Shown here: in pieces, positions 30,088 through 63,782 of the stretch
Layout: each line of letters starts with the position of its first letter
Numbering within the stretch: position 1 is the first letter of the stretch
Virus record (IMG/VR): IMGVR_UViG_3300036945_000641
Coordinates: 1 to 64,000 of that record
DNA length: 64,000 bases
Direction: 5' to 3' (one strand)
Source: a virus
Position numbers and translations under genes: made by a program
The notes under the pieces: generated by a model
Database searches by the model: none
The model's input: only the letters and a program-made list of their open reading frames with translations
Told to the model about the DNA's origin: nothing

Positions 30088-30420
30088 ATGTCAGAAGAAA
30101 AAGACTCAGCAAAAGGCGTGTTTATAGAAAAACTACTGTTTGCTCTACTACCATTAATTATTGCCGGAGTAGGTTATTTACTAAGTGCTGTAGGCACATT
30201 AGCACACCAAGTAACTATTTTAGAAAGCAAAGTAAGTTTAGTTGTAACTAGCGACAATAAACAGGCCCCTAATACTGGTGCCGAACTTGCTCGCGAAAGG
30301 TTACGCCAAGATTTAACAGAAGCAATTCAACGTAATCGTGACGCTATTCAACAAAACAAAGAACATATTAGTATTCACGAAGAAAAACTTCGTCAGTTGC
30401 AAAAGCAAGTAACAAAGTAA
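30088..30420 (+). CDS. Membrane-anchored coiled-coil protein in lysis cassette
   Basis: A 110-residue protein with one membrane segment (about 15-38, L-L-F-A-L-L-P-L-I-I-A-G-V-G-Y-L-L) and a coiled-coil tail (60-108). GGAG precedes the ATG, 1 base after the endolysin. It could be a lysis regulator (antiholin-like) or a second spanin-like protein. It resembles the protein at 15371 in build, not in sequence. Confidence 0.55.
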   Translation: MSEEKDSAKGVFIEKLLFALLPLIIAGVGYLLSAVGTLAHQVTILESKVSLVVTSDNKQAPNTGAELARERLRQDLTEAIQRNRDAIQQNKEHISIHEEKLRQLQKQVTK

Positions 30421-32444: not shown

Positions 32445-32882
32445 ATGGCAGAAGAAATTAAAGTGTTATCTGCTAGTGAGCAAAAGAAAGAAGATTGGAT
32501 GAATTCAAAGTGGCGACCCATGATGGGTTGGCTATACATGGCTACTTGCACCTTTGATTTTGTTATTTTTCCTATTTTATGGAGCTTACTACAAGCAGTA
32601 ACACACGCTACACAAATTACACAGTGGCAACCACTAACATTGCAAGGTGCTGGTTTATACCATATTGCAATGGGTGCTGTGCTAGGACTTGCAGCGTTTG
32701 GTCGTACACAAGAAAAATTAGCTGGAGCTAACAACGGCGGAGCAAAATCAGAAGTTATTACTGTTACACCAACGCCTAAAATAGTTCAAGAACCTCAATT
32801 TCAACCCACAGTGCAACAACCACAGATCGTAATGATTAACGGTAAACCTGCACCTCAACCAGCCTACCAGCCGGAGATTTAA
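32445..32882 (+). CDS. Holin (3-TM, gene-transfer-agent type)
   Basis: A 145-residue protein with three hydrophobic segments (about 25-45, 48-62 and 68-88). The start of the domain reads W-M-N-S-K-W-R-P-M-M-G-W-L-Y-M, the hallmark of the GTA_holin_3TM family. The C-terminal third is hydrophilic and Pro/Gln-rich. Holins open the inner membrane so that the endolysin can reach the wall. Located 2.3 kb after the endolysin gene, with its stop overlapping the next start by one base. Confidence 0.75.
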   Translation: MAEEIKVLSASEQKKEDWMNSKWRPMMGWLYMATCTFDFVIFPILWSLLQAVTHATQITQWQPLTLQGAGLYHIAMGAVLGLAAFGRTQEKLAGANNGGAKSEVITVTPTPKIVQEPQFQPTVQQPQIVMINGKPAPQPAYQPEI

Positions 32883-33082
32883 TGAAAAGTTTATTTTATT
32901 CACTTTGCGTAGTACTAGGAGTTACATTCTTAGCATACAACAATCCCGCATTTGCTGAAGCACAAACTAAAAAAGTATGTGTTGAGCAAAAAGACGCCAA
33001 AACAGGCAAAACCAAAGAAGTTTGTAAAGAAGTCAAGCAACACAAAAAGCTTGAAGGCACTAAAGTTCCAGAAAAGAAGTAA
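32882..33082 (+). CDS. Small exported basic protein
   Basis: A 66-residue protein with a clear signal peptide (hydrophobic 3-19, cleavage likely after A-F-A near residue 25) and a Lys-rich mature part with two cysteines (K-V-C-V-E-Q-K and K-E-V-C-K-E) that may form a disulfide. It overlaps the holin stop by 1 base (TAATG). Probably periplasmic; function unknown. A 14-bp palindrome (AGTGGCTAGCCACT, 33089-33102) follows in the 59-base gap before PhoH. Confidence 0.6.
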   Translation: MKSLFYSLCVVLGVTFLAYNNPAFAEAQTKKVCVEQKDAKTGKTKEVCKEVKQHKKLEGTKVPEKK

Positions 33083-36299: not shown

Positions 36300-38264
36300 T
36301 TATTTAATTGGGCAAGCGCCCGTGGCACACTCAGCATCCAGAATCTCGTCGAAGCTGTTGGTGTTGTTTAAGTCGACTTCACTCAATACTTTTACATATT
36401 CGTTGTAGTCTTCTTCGGTTACGACTTCTTGTGGAAGATACAAGTAACCTAAGTCTTTTGCAGTTTTAGTAGGGTCTGTGCGATAGATAAAACTAACGCC
36501 TACATAACAATCCCAGTTATCTAGTAACCAGTCAATAATAGCAGGTACTTCGCTAGGATCATAACTAATTGTTACCGAGGTATTCTGCTGATTCCAAGAT
36601 GTTTGTAGGAGTTTGTATCGCTCTAGCTGAATAACAGCTGATTCAATATTAACTTCTTTTCCTGCAACTTCATCAAAAGGAACATCGTCCCAACGTACTG
36701 GAAATGTAACTAGCACTCCCGAATCATCAACAGGATGATTCATAACACGATAGTTGGCTTGACGTAGTTTTTCAACTACTGGGTCATGCTTACTAAACTG
36801 TACATTGTTGAAAATATACTTACCTAGTGGCTTATGAACACCTTCTGTGGTATCCATAATTTTACTCAATGTTCCCGACGGCTTAATACAAGTTACATTT
36901 TTAGGAGCAGGTAGACCAAGTTCTTGGCTCATACCAATAGCTGCACCAGTTGCTGTACGCTTTAAGTATTCGTAGTCATAGCTTCCCATGTCAGGACGCA
37001 TTGCAATACCTGTTAAGCCTACTCCGCATAAACGCAAGAAGTAGTTGTTTAAGTGCCATGACTCTTGCAGGATACCATCTTGTAAGTTAACGCAAGTTTG
37101 GCGATAGTTAGCACGAGCAGCAAGTCGAATAGCTGTGTGTAAGCCAGCAGTATCACCTTTGAACTTAGCAATATCAGTTTCTGTTAAGTTACAGAATGAC
37201 TTGTTGCCTAGTAAGATTTCTACACAAGGATTAGCACCTTTAAACCAAGGAGCGCGACGGATAGCTTCTACTTCGTTGATAAAACCTGGCTCACTGCCAC
37301 CTGCTTTAATCATCATACCAAAGATTTTTTCTAAGTCTGATCGTAGTGGGGTTTCTTTAAACACCAAGCTATTGTTAGACTGTGTGCGGTGTGCATTGTT
37401 ATGCAACCACCAATCTTTCTTTGCTACAGCAAACTCTTCCCACTCTGGTTGACCGTAATCGAAAAGTGCGATTTCAGCACTGCGACGACTGGATAAAATA
37501 GTGCCAAGATGGTTAACAATGTCAAGAATATCCATCCTAGTAAGTAAACTGTCAGCACGACCATTAAGTATATTGGCAATAGCAACATAAGCAGTGCTAA
37601 TTGCGCTATCACCTGAACTAATCCAGCCATATCCTTTTAACCTTTCACCTGCGGGGCGTAATTGACTAAAATCCAATACAAGAGTATCAGCAGGGTACTT
37701 ACCCGCAAGCAACTTTCCAATAGACTTTGCCCAAGCTTCTGCACTGTCTCCAACCTGAATAGTCCAAGTTTTAGTTGCTTCTTCCCAATATTCAACATTT
37801 TCCTCATTACCACCTTTTGCTGTACGTGTGCTACGAACTACTCGGATATTTTTAATTGGCTTTGAAAAACCATTTAGTGTACCAACAATTGGCTTGAATC
37901 CAACTCCGCAACCTTGTAGTAGCAACCATAAGACGTCAACTACATCATAGATTGTTTCAACGTGTGTAAAGCTACAGTTAAACTGTGAAGCCTCACGTGT
38001 TTTAGCTACATCTGTACCGCCTAGCCAAAGTGTGCGTCCGCTCATGGACACCTTGCGATCAAGCATTAGCTGCTCTAGGTCGTATAGTTCTGCGTATTCT
38101 TGGTCGTTTAAATCACGACCTACTGCTCGCTCCCATAACCACTGTTGGTGGTCAATTACTCGGGCAACTGTTTCTTGCCATGTTTCAAATTGTTTTCCGT
38201 CGTCTGAAGTTGGTCTATTGTATGTTCGACGTGTAATTACTTGTGCTCGTGTGCTGACTGCCAT
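36300..38264 (-). CDS. Class II (B12-dependent) ribonucleotide reductase, monomeric type
   Basis: A 654-residue protein from ATG 38264 (AAAGGAAA ahead; a longer frame exists but overlaps dut). It converts ribonucleotides to deoxyribonucleotides with adenosylcobalamin. Seen: F-N-C-S-F for the first redox Cys; G-C-G-V-G-F; the loop N-P-C-V-E-I-L with radical Cys and the N-x-C-x-E set; F-C-N-L-T-E for the second redox Cys; K-P-S-G-T-L-S; and a C-terminal C-A-T-G-A-C-P-I-K with the shuttle cysteines. This is the set of Lactobacillus-type RTPR. No small subunit is needed or seen. Glutaredoxin is encoded at 42256. Confidence 0.92.
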   Translation of the reverse strand: MAVSTRAQVITRRTYNRPTSDDGKQFETWQETVARVIDHQQWLWERAVGRDLNDQEYAELYDLEQLMLDRKVSMSGRTLWLGGTDVAKTREASQFNCSFTHVETIYDVVDVLWLLLQGCGVGFKPIVGTLNGFSKPIKNIRVVRSTRTAKGGNEENVEYWEEATKTWTIQVGDSAEAWAKSIGKLLAGKYPADTLVLDFSQLRPAGERLKGYGWISSGDSAISTAYVAIANILNGRADSLLTRMDILDIVNHLGTILSSRRSAEIALFDYGQPEWEEFAVAKKDWWLHNNAHRTQSNNSLVFKETPLRSDLEKIFGMMIKAGGSEPGFINEVEAIRRAPWFKGANPCVEILLGNKSFCNLTETDIAKFKGDTAGLHTAIRLAARANYRQTCVNLQDGILQESWHLNNYFLRLCGVGLTGIAMRPDMGSYDYEYLKRTATGAAIGMSQELGLPAPKNVTCIKPSGTLSKIMDTTEGVHKPLGKYIFNNVQFSKHDPVVEKLRQANYRVMNHPVDDSGVLVTFPVRWDDVPFDEVAGKEVNIESAVIQLERYKLLQTSWNQQNTSVTISYDPSEVPAIIDWLLDNWDCYVGVSFIYRTDPTKTAKDLGYLYLPQEVVTEEDYNEYVKVLSEVDLNNTNSFDEILDAECATGACPIK

Positions 38265-38272
38265 GATTTCCT

Positions 38273-38776
38273 TTATGTGCCGGTACTGCCAAATCCGCCA
38301 GTACCGCGTTCTGTGTCGTTCCAAATATCTACAAATTCAGGCAGCAAAACTGGCATTAGTACCAGTTGAGCAATTCGGTCGCCGCGTGAGATTTTATAAG
38401 GGTCTTCTGAAATATTTTTTAACAGGACTTTGATTTCTCCACGATAGCCGCTGTCAATAACGCCTACGCTGTGAGGGATAGTAATTCCCTTTTTTCCTTG
38501 AGAGCTTCTGTTAAAAACAAAGCCTGCGTAGCCCTCTGGAATTTTTGTCGCTACTCCTGTACCAACAAGTTTTTGTTCGCCAGGATAGATTTCTAAATCT
38601 TCAATGCTCATTAAATCTGCACCAGCATCAGTGGGGTTAGCACGACGTGGTAGTGATTCCTTATCTTCTACAAGGCAAGGGATTGCTTGTTTAATTGCAC
38701 GATCGGTGTTGTAATCGTAGTTTCGGTTAATATTAAAGTATACTCCGTCACTGGTAATTCTCATTTTTTCGTTCAT
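38273..38776 (-). CDS. dut: dUTP diphosphatase
   Basis: A 167-residue trimeric dUTPase that removes dUTP and supplies dUMP. All five motifs are present: D-A-G-A-D-L (50-55), R-S-S-Q-G-K-K-G (90-97), G-V-I-D-S-G-Y-R-G-E-I (105-115), G-D-R-I-A-Q-L-V-L (132-140) and the C-terminal R-G-T-G-G-F-G-S-T-G (157-166). An N-terminal extension of about 40 residues is not part of the usual domain. Start overlaps the exonuclease stop by 4 bases. Confidence 0.96.
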   Translation of the reverse strand: MNEKMRITSDGVYFNINRNYDYNTDRAIKQAIPCLVEDKESLPRRANPTDAGADLMSIEDLEIYPGEQKLVGTGVATKIPEGYAGFVFNRSSQGKKGITIPHSVGVIDSGYRGEIKVLLKNISEDPYKISRGDRIAQLVLMPVLLPEFVDIWNDTERGTGGFGSTGT

Positions 38777-60250: not shown

Positions 60251-60553
60251 TTAAAAGGGTACATCGTCATCGCTAAAGTTTACTTCTTGCACAGAAGGCT
60301 CGTCATACTCTTTAGTATACGGGTCAACTTCTTCAAGCTGATGACGTTGCTGGTTTTTAAAGCCAGCGTGTTCTTTGATTGTTTCTGTTACTATACCTGT
60401 GTATTTCATTAAGCCAGATTTATCTGCCCAAATTAGGTACTCGTAGTGATCTGGGATTACATCGCAGATTCTGCAACCTTGTAGTTTGCCAACACGTATT
60501 GTGTCAGTCATATCTAGTACAGTTGATTTTACATTTTTAAATGATATTGCCAT
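60251..60553 (-). CDS. ExoX-C-like protein with SSB-type acidic tail
   Basis: A 100-residue protein from ATG 60553. It begins M-A-I-S-F-K-N, the same seven residues as the phage ssDNA-binding protein. Residues 20-62 (R-V-G-K-L-Q-G-C-R-I-C-D-V ... Y-L-I-W-A-D) follow the G-K-x-x-G ... Y-L-x-W pattern of the ExoX-like C-terminal module. It ends D-D-D-V-P-F (95-100), like the tip of bacterial SSB that recruits repair proteins. The start codon is buried in a long hairpin that begins at the tRNA-Ser CCA. Confidence 0.6.
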   Translation of the reverse strand: MAISFKNVKSTVLDMTDTIRVGKLQGCRICDVIPDHYEYLIWADKSGLMKYTGIVTETIKEHAGFKNQQRHQLEEVDPYTKEYDEPSVQEVNFSDDDVPF

Positions 60554-60634
60554 AAGAAAGCACACTCTAAGGCTGCCGGACTCAAACCAGCTTGATTTAA
60601 TGGATGTGCCACACTAAGTGTGCTTACTTATGGC
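60549..60634 (-). repeat. Long hairpin starting at discriminator base of tRNA-Ser
   Basis: GCCATAAG-T-AAGCACACT pairs with AGTGTGCTT-T-CTTATGGC: 17 of 18 positions, one T-T mismatch. The 5' arm starts exactly with G73-C-C-A of tRNA-Ser; the 3' arm ends inside the start of the next gene and includes its ATG. The enclosed 50 bases hold a T-arm-like hairpin (GCTGG-TTTGAGT-CCGGC). Confidence 0.85.
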
Positions 60635-60722
60635 GGAAAGCAGAGGAGTCGAACCCCATCCCCGTTAGGAGAACCTGGTTTTCAAGGCCAGTCGCAGGAC
60701 CATCCCCGCTGCATTACTTTCC
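60631..60722 (-). tRNA. tRNA-Ser (TGA)
   Basis: Class II tRNA with long variable arm and encoded CCA. Anticodon loop CTTGAAA on CTGGC/ACCAG (one C-A pair next to the loop), T-arm GGGG-TTCGACT-CCTC, discriminator G as in serine tRNAs. Confidence 0.93.
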
Positions 60723-60728
60723 ACGTTT

Positions 60729-61334
60729 TTATTCTTGTTTTTCGGCCTCTAGCTGAGCGTGTTTCTCGGCTACAGCGCTAAGTCGTTTTACAACTTCATC
60801 TGAAGTCATCCAAATATCTTTGTTGTGTAGCATTGAGTCAATTTCTTCGTGTGTTAAGAAATCTGCGTAAACTTCACGCATAAAGTTTTCTGACCAGCGA
60901 CGTTCAAACTGTAGTTGGTCGTACATTTCTCCACCTTTGCCAAACACGCCTGCACTATAGTTGTGAAACATAAATAGTGAGTGTGGGGTTACTTCTTGCT
61001 GATGACCATGTAAGAAGATCATTGTTGCAGCACTCATGCAAGCGCCTTCAACTGAAGTAACAATAGTGGCTTCGGTCTCGCCCATAACTCGTAAAAATTG
61101 TAGTGTGGTATAAAGATCACCACCACCTGAGTTAATGTAGATACGAACTGTGTCAGCACTGGTGGCATTGCGAATTGTGTCAAACCACTCAATGTACTCT
61201 TGTGGCTCACAAATTTCACCACTCAAGTAGAACTCATATAAGCGTCCGATTGATTTAGAAAAGCTATTACCATTCTTGTCCGTTTCAAACAATTTAGGGT
61301 CGAGAATGTTTGTCTTTTTAGTTGTCATTTTCAT
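60729..61334 (-). CDS. clpP: ClpP-like serine protease
   Basis: A 201-residue protease subunit of near-bacterial length. I-N-S-G-G-G (67-72), nucleophile Ser101 in G-A-C-M-S-A-A-T, His124 in F-M-F-H-N-Y, and Asp173 in N-K-D-I-W-M-T-S-D-E: the full triad in the usual order. Phage ClpP-like proteins are sometimes head proteases, but this gene lies in the tRNA region far from head genes, and its start is 20 bases from the permuted tmRNA. It could form tetradecamers with a host ClpX or ClpA; no Clp ATPase is seen here. Confidence 0.9.
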   Translation of the reverse strand: MKMTTKKTNILDPKLFETDKNGNSFSKSIGRLYEFYLSGEICEPQEYIEWFDTIRNATSADTVRIYINSGGGDLYTTLQFLRVMGETEATIVTSVEGACMSAATMIFLHGHQQEVTPHSLFMFHNYSAGVFGKGGEMYDQLQFERRWSENFMREVYADFLTHEEIDSMLHNKDIWMTSDEVVKRLSAVAEKHAQLEAEKQE

Positions 61335-61354
61335 CTTATACTCGTTTATAAATT

Positions 61355-61692
61355 AGGGCCAGTATTCTGTTACGAGGAACTGGCAAAACCCTAAGCAGCG
61401 TTTAGGCTGCTAATGCGTACGTGTTATCGTTTGCAGTTATTTTTGTTTTGCTGTTACGACCAGGAAACCCCAGTCCTACGGCTGTCGCATTGCCGAGTTG
61501 TCTGCTTTAATACTCTTAGCCTAATCGAAAGCCAGGTCAGCCCCATCAAAAGCACTCCTAGTGTTCTTAGGTCGGGAATTCCAGTCCTCAGCCGTATGAG
61601 AAACAGCTTACATACTACCCTACTCAATGCTTATGGTGGAGCTGGCGGGAGTCGAACCCGCGTCTTAAACTCTTTTCTATCGGCTTCATACA
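61355..61692 (-). ncRNA. ssrA: Circularly permuted (two-piece) tmRNA
   Basis: The 3' acceptor piece lies upstream of the 5' coding piece. The acceptor piece (61692 to 61634, 59 bases) ends in T-arm GCGGG-TTCGACT-CCCGC, acceptor strand CAGCTCC, A, CCA. An 89-base spacer (61633-61545) follows. The coding piece starts at 61544 with GGGGCTGACCTGGCTTTCGA, whose first 7 bases pair with CAGCTCC. A tag frame for ANDNTYALAA and stop lies at 61434-61402, partly inside a helix 5-like stem. A final stem (GCCAGT with ACTGGC) closes near 61358. This is the gene order of two-piece tmRNAs. The acceptor 5' end and coding 3' end are estimates. Confidence 0.93.
61402..61434 (-). other. tmRNA proteolysis tag frame (ANDNTYALAA)
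   Basis: Resume codon GCA at 61434-61432, then nine codons and TAA at 61404-61402. The sequence differs from the Escherichia coli tag (ANDENYALAA) at two of ten positions and keeps the ALAA end read by ClpXP and ClpAP. The bases around it (AACTGCAAACGA) and the following stem (TTAGCAGC with GCTGCTTAG) match the usual tmRNA arrangement. Confidence 0.93.
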
Positions 61693-61805
61693 ACCATACT
61701 ATAACACACTACCCTTGCTGGGTGCTCCCAGTTACCCGCGGAAGGTGTGCTCGAGCTTACTCCGCATATATGCATTAAGTGGCGAGTAGTGTGTTATAGT
61801 ATGGT
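61693..61805 (-). repeat. 20-bp perfect hairpin stem starting at discriminator base of tRNA-Thr
   Basis: The arm at 61786-61805 (minus strand: A73-C-C-A then TACTATAACACACTAC) pairs perfectly over 20 bp with 61693-61712. The 73-base interior contains further stems (GCGGA with TCCGC around GCTCGAGC; CTGGG-AGCA-CCCAG). The 3' arm ends where the tmRNA acceptor piece begins, so it may define that end. Confidence 0.88.
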
Positions 61806-61876
61806 GCCGAATGTCGGGATTGAACTGACGACCTACCGCTTACAAGGCGGTTGCTCTACCACTGAGCTAATTCGGC
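61802..61876 (-). tRNA. tRNA-Thr (TGT)
   Basis: Complete with encoded CCA. Acceptor GCCGAAT pairs fully with ATTCGGC; anticodon loop CTTGTAA on ACCGC/GCGGT; T-arm with one A-C mismatch. Confidence 0.94.
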
Positions 61877-63119: not shown

Positions 63120-63275
63120 TTACCAATGTCTGATAACACCGGCAACAATAAATATATTAGTTATGATATAGCACATAACAATTGCTGTTCTTATAAGGGC
63201 TACTTTATCAGCCTGAGAATCATCCCCTGCTTTTTCACCTAAGGCTTTTGCCCATAATGTCCAGAGTTTTTTCAT
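63120..63275 (-). CDS. 51-residue single-pass membrane protein
   Basis: From ATG 63275: a basic, Trp-containing start (M-K-K-L-W-T-L-W-A-K), a charged middle (E-K-A-G-D-D-S-Q) and one hydrophobic segment (I-R-T-A-I-V-M-C-Y-I-I-T-N-I-F-I-V-A-G) near the end. The start codon lies in the 3' arm of a perfect 17-bp hairpin. No ribosome site is evident. Function unknown. Confidence 0.6.
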   Translation of the reverse strand: MKKLWTLWAKALGEKAGDDSQADKVALIRTAIVMCYIITNIFIVAGVIRHW

Positions 63276-63376
63276 ATTTAATTCTAGTGCTCGGTGCGCC
63301 ATCCCCGAGTGAGCTTCAATACCAGAGAAGGATAGTATCTACACACTATAGCGCGTTTTCACTAGAATTAAATATG
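63273..63376 (-). repeat. 17-bp perfect inverted repeat covering a start codon
   Basis: CATATTTAATTCTAGTG and CACTAGAATTAAATATG are perfect inverted copies 70 bases apart. The minus-strand 3' arm ends in the ATG of the membrane protein. The interior has a stem-like GCGCTAT with ATGGCGC pair. Upstream (63376-63394) another small stem (GCTGG with CCAGC) adjoins it. Confidence 0.85.
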
Positions 63377-63654: not shown

Positions 63655-63782
63655 ACCATATAAAAACACTTTGCTAGTACTTGAATCTATGACAACCCTA
63701 CTTCATGGCCGATTCTTGCTTTAGTCGACTTGGCAAGCATTGCGGAGTTCCACTGTAGTTGTTCAAAGTGTTTTTATATGGT
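63655..63782 (-). repeat. 19-bp perfect hairpin stem starting at discriminator base of tRNA-Tyr
   Basis: A73-C-C-A of tRNA-Tyr followed by TATAAAAACACTTTG pairs perfectly over 19 bp with an arm that ends 4 bases before tRNA-Leu. The 90-base interior has a smaller stem (CTTGC with GCAAG) and ACAAC with GTTGT. No gene found in it. Confidence 0.88.

Follow-up and report, generated by a model that had tools for sequence, protein, structure and literature searches.

A probably functional circularly permuted tmRNA gene and candidate exchangeable RNA cassettes in an uncultivated T5-like phage lineage

A virus contig of 73,239 bases from IMG/VR carries, within the 64,000 nucleotides analyzed here (the window), a tmRNA gene whose two pieces stand in reversed order, and the question raised by this locus is whether it is a working phage ssrA and what the RNA segments lying beside and inside it might be. 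Judged by its gene content, the contig comes from an uncultivated lineage of T5-like phages: it encodes a two-gene NAD ligase, a D5-like regulator, SbcC/SbcD-like proteins, a primase and helicases, and its DNA polymerase is 49% identical to that of T5-like Vibrio phages. The tmRNA sits within a long tRNA cluster, and the T5-like genes on the same contig bear out the original prediction that it is phage-borne. A search with tail proteins for the nearest isolates returned nothing beyond weak tail-fibre matches. The window also encodes a class II type (adenosylcobalamin-dependent) ribonucleotide reductase (36300-38324, minus strand), at most 70% identical to proteins of uncultivated phages. A tRNA gene at 60635-60722 (minus strand) was missed by ARAGORN and is scored by Rfam as a weak tRNA-Sec (36.8 bits); it looks like a tRNA-Ser(UGA) rather than a tRNA-Sec.

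The features of the locus are collected in Table 1. ARAGORN calls a circularly permuted two-piece tmRNA gene at 61695-61353 on the minus strand with the tag ANDNTYALAA, and the Rfam model for permuted tmRNA (RF04321) scores 120.7 bits against a cut-off of 47 (E 5e-23), in agreement with the predicted order in which the acceptor and T-arm piece precedes the coding piece. The best-scoring clade model is that of the beta_tmRNA (RF01850; 107.2 bits, cut-off 84, E 1e-31), with only 50.8 bits for the alpha model; a covariance search had been proposed as a check on the call, and the RF04321 and RF01850 scores are so far over their cut-offs that chance is excluded. The 89-nt spacer, the 5' end GGGGCTG at 61544 and the tag frame at 61434-61402 are as first described. 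Of the limits proposed for the acceptor piece, 61692-61634, the end at 61634 stands and the start moves to 61695, where GGUUGU begins; the CCA is encoded at 61636-61634, and the 3' limit of the coding piece lies at about 61353. The tag is read as GCA AAC GAT AAC ACG TAC GCA TTA GCA GCC TAA, and a resume codon, an open tag frame, a stop and a protease-type C-terminus are all present. An AGGG/UCCU pairing is possible in the 3' domain, although both strands of this pseudoknot are invariant in the T5-like copies, so that covariation is silent on it. A 'tRNA-His' called by ARAGORN at 61634-61728 overlaps the acceptor piece and is a false call.

Table 1. Positions of the tmRNA gene, its neighbors and the RNA cassettes in the window.
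Feature	Position	Strand	Basis or remark
Cassette-type hairpin, begins at CCA of uncalled tRNA (60635-60722)	60549..60634	-	hairpin search
Gene for a ClpP-like serine protease, next after the tmRNA	60729..61334	-	phrog_1827 8e-62, PF00574, ClpP fold, 31 homologues
tmRNA coding piece: 5' acceptor strand GGGGCTG, D-loop, tag frame, 3' hairpin CCAGT/ACTGG	61353..61544	-	sequence, Rfam, alignment
Tag reading frame ANDNTYALAA and stop TAA	61402..61434	-	sequence, ARAGORN
tmRNA intervening spacer, 89 nt	61545..61633	-	family 7 core
tmRNA acceptor piece: P2 5' strand GGUUGU, T-arm, 3' acceptor strand CAGCTCC, CCA	61634..61695	-	sequence, ARAGORN, Rfam
Family-0 structured RNA cassette, 113-nt hairpin between tRNA-Thr and tmRNA	61693..61805	-	22-bp closing stem
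tRNA-Thr(UGU), directly upstream of family-0 cassette	61802..61876	-	ARAGORN
Family-1 cassette	63273..63376	-	core in 11 other loci, between tRNA-Glu/Leu and tRNA-Asp in several
Cassette between tRNA-Tyr and tRNA-Leu	63655..63782	-	core common to the tmRNA spacer of locus L014

Retrieval through the neighboring ClpP gave 44 related loci, near-identical contigs among them, and ARAGORN finds a permuted tmRNA in 24; the covariance model adds three full tmRNAs, together with fragments in two more loci at contig ends. Standard pairs fill 414 of 414 cells in the acceptor stem, T-stem and 3' hairpin of 23 distinct tmRNA copies taken from related phage contigs, with many compensatory changes, these counts not being independent events because the copies share ancestry. 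By helix, the figures are 161/161 for the acceptor stem against a shuffled mean of 142, 115/115 for the T-stem against 103, and 138/138 for the 3' hairpin against 74. The alanine identity pair G3-U70 is invariant in all 23 copies while other pairs covary. The tags of the relatives vary (ANDTQFALVA, ANDQVYALAA, ANDSQFALAA, ANDESFRIAA and others), terminating in ALAA, ALVA or RIAA, and an AND....ALAA-like form is kept. A decayed gene would look different from one with full pairing and a conserved tag form, and the window tmRNA is a genuine ssrA and, from these patterns, very probably a functional one.

Several relatives show departures of their own. Two copies (L003:5531-5888 and L008:5569-5919) have the T-loop GGCAGTG in place of TTCGACT and, in the D-loop region, CAGGATCGA in place of TGGTTTCGA, a paired replacement that may preserve the contact between the two loops. 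The tmRNA spacers of L012, L017, L023, L044 and L091 contain a small open reading frame of 24-48 aa, some of them hydrophobic, so that a protein gene may lie within a permuted tmRNA gene. At L143 (2072-3134) an ORF resembling a GIY-YIG homing endonuclease lies between a partial tmRNA and a complete one, a match pattern repeated in L147, L149 and L153, and the arrangement in L143 suggests a homing element that targets the tmRNA.

We are confident that the locus is a functional circularly permuted ssrA of a T5-like phage. What is observed is the order of the pieces, their pairing and the tag frame; the later steps are inferred from the behavior of known tmRNAs. The RNA would probably be transcribed together with the phage tRNA cluster. 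Two cuts by tRNA-processing enzymes of the host, one at the encoded CCA (61634) and the other at the 5' end of the acceptor (61544), would presumably release the spacer and leave two RNAs that P2 and the acceptor stem hold together. Charging of the tmRNA by host AlaRS would rely on G3-U70, and host SmpB, which would be needed since a search of 11 phage records turned up no smpB, would load it onto stalled ribosomes, where ANDNTYALAA would be added and would mark the product for Clp-type proteolysis. Ribosome rescue by the phage tmRNA is by this analogy plausible. Phages often pick up ssrA fragments (PMC9004378) and many related contigs have no tmRNA, as might be expected of a passive, non-functional relic taken from a host, but this is very unlikely given that all tested helices keep their pairs through compensatory change and that the tag frame is open, its form conserved across diverged phages. 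It is also improbable that the RNA mainly redirects or dampens host trans-translation by competing for SmpB, AlaRS or stalled ribosomes. The lack of an SmpB gene in the 11 records would fit such a role, as would the CDS-less tmRNA of phage DS6A, an inhibitor of host tmRNA in E. coli by the account cited in PMC11915505; a pure inhibitor would not need the full tag with a Clp-type C-terminus that almost all copies possess. Since tmRNA genes are normally bacterial, the stretch might be host DNA misbinned as viral, an idea we give almost no credence, since the contig also bears T5-like genes for replication and the tail and the same arrangement recurs in many independent virus contigs.

A tmRNA lying next to a protease gene invites the further thought that the two act together. 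The tmRNA precedes clpP by at most 200 nt in the window, where the clpP start lies about 19 nt past the predicted tmRNA end, as well as in 22 of the 44 ClpP loci (near-identical contigs counted); the distance is about 0.6 kb in L028 and L031 and about 2 kb in L035-L037. If tmRNA and ClpP formed a dedicated tag-and-destroy module of the phage, one use of which might be to recycle host proteins, this would account for the tmRNA being retained directly upstream of a ClpP-family gene in most tmRNA-bearing relatives, and the predicted triad of Ser101, His124 and Asp173 is invariant in 31 ClpP homologues. Ser101 is taken as the nucleophile from the HMMER register; an ungapped MAFFT register gives Cys99. 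The structural model is of modest quality (pLDDT 75), and a Foldseek search with it ranks ClpP structures at the top, alongside signal peptide peptidase A (SppA). Against a module, T5 carries a member of this ClpP family (T5.042) and lacks a tmRNA, which indicates that ClpP is the older of the two in the lineage and weakens its value as evidence for a module, and the adjacency may be inherited synteny. No ClpX/ClpA-type ATPase or SspB was found in 11 phage records, and the docking pocket for ClpX/ClpA is recognizable only in part: by comparison with the E. coli sequence, Y62 and F82 are kept and F112 and L114 are not. We regard a dedicated module as a tentative proposal, and it is similarly doubtful that the phage ClpP helps to degrade the tagged protein. 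As roughly one third of ClpP loci and T5 itself are without a tmRNA, the tmRNA is optional, and this distribution probably reflects its gain by, or its loss from, an older clpP arrangement. The literature searched, with most subscription papers outside it, holds no report of ClpP-tmRNA adjacency in phages.

The segments around and inside the tmRNA gene have a character of their own. Immediately 5' of the tmRNA a perfect 20-nt inverted repeat surrounds 73 nt, and the resulting family-0 cassette extends on one side into the CCA of tRNA-Thr and on the other into the acceptor piece, of which it covers the first 3 nt (GGU). The related loci contain 81 hairpins with stems of at least 16 bp, the 5' arm beginning at a CCA in 43 of them; random sequence of the window's composition yields 0-2 hairpins of at least 14 bp per 64 kb. 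At least 15 families are distinguished among their cores, and families 3, 4 and 19 each hold both inter-tRNA hairpins and tmRNA spacers. The 89-nt spacer is itself a family 7 cassette, common to the spacers of L003, L007 and L025, and has no match in phage records. Family 0 occurs elsewhere downstream of the tmRNA (L003, L010, L152), between tRNAs (L041, L159) and inside tmRNA spacers (L151, L156, L143). Among 25 family-0 sequences, 28 of 37 pairs show double-sided changes, and 98.1% of cells pair in a structure-fitted alignment, compared with 78.9% in shuffled and 38-50% in slid controls; MAFFT with RNAalifold recovers the same fold from 14 sequences, and single-stranded blocks such as GCCACUUAAU are nearly invariant. 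The hairpin has no match in Rfam 15 and no BLAST match in 50,697 phage records.

On the evidence of these alignments, the spacer and the 113-nt upstream hairpin are predicted to be exchangeable structured RNA cassettes of a kind also found between tRNA genes, and such interchangeable, strongly folded RNA segments, lying both beside a tmRNA gene and within it, look new; exchangeable spacer cassettes are absent from the literature searched, most subscription papers lying outside it. We lean towards a broader view, in which T5-like phages would possess a repertoire of cassettes, each a conserved core within a long covarying stem, occupying interchangeable tRNA-CCA and tmRNA-spacer slots, with family 0, the best supported of them, forming a new class of noncoding phage RNA that may correspond to the T5 stable RNAs. 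The spacer of the permuted tmRNA would on this reading be a slot common to inter-tRNA positions and filled by conserved folded RNAs without an Rfam match. The ClpP neighbor and the exchangeable cassettes, of which the spacer is one, go beyond the original prediction, and it is in the cassette system that the novelty lies, the tmRNA form itself being known from other phages.

The host is less readily named. A betaproteobacterial host had been suggested from the tag; it gains from the better fit of the beta than of the alpha model (107 against 51 bits) and stays unproven, as the bacteria with the exact tag ANDNTYALAA, seven loci that are mostly Burkholderiales, have a one-piece tmRNA in 7/7, and we reject the tag as a guide. 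Gene type is not decisive either: a beta-type permuted gene exceeds the cut-off in only 3 of 120 genomes sampled from the order of the genome that holds a Roseateles locus (L097), and a Stenotrophomonas phage has the beta type too, so that tmRNA type does not name the host and is a poor marker for it.

Comparison with known systems places the locus more exactly. The original prediction held that a permuted tmRNA is uncommon in phages, which overstates its rarity: Buchholz et al. 2022 describe 53 two-piece tmRNA structures in phages (PMC9004378), and ARAGORN calls the permuted form in Pelagibacter phage HTVC008M, Alcaligenes phage QDWS595 and Stenotrophomonas phage Marzo. With two-piece phage tmRNAs published in 2022, the window tmRNA is a new member from a new phage lineage, adding one T5-like lineage to the known carriers. 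Methylophilales phage Melnitz and HTVC008M (PMC9004378) likewise encode a permuted tmRNA with an intact tag, but they are myophages with an alpha-type gene (83.8 bits alpha and 56 beta for HTVC008M), whereas the window gene is beta-type, belongs to a T5-like phage, lies in a tRNA cluster adjoining clpP and has large cassette spacers; the window ClpP finds no match in HTVC008M. QDWS595 and the Stenotrophomonas phages (Marzo and relatives) share a beta-type permuted gene beside tRNA genes, but belong to different phage groups, and the window ClpP is unmatched in the two records tested. The permuted tmRNA is unannotated in the QDWS595 record, and that of Marzo is annotated merely as tmRNA, without its permuted form (L101, L103). 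The bacterial beta-type genes, whose model is the best-scoring for the window gene, differ in having spacers of 24-42 nt in the three compared, against 59-160 nt (median 89) in the phages, and two of these three do not encode the CCA. In T5, cassette-type hairpins at 30278-30397 and 32826-32953 lie where the annotation places RNAIII and RNAIV, two "stable RNAs of unknown function". Their cores match no cassette family here, and T5 is without a tmRNA, but they share the long closing stem, the folded core and the position in a tRNA region, and since these two hairpins of cassette design lie in a tractable phage, the T5 stable RNAs are open to test by deletion and RNA sequencing.
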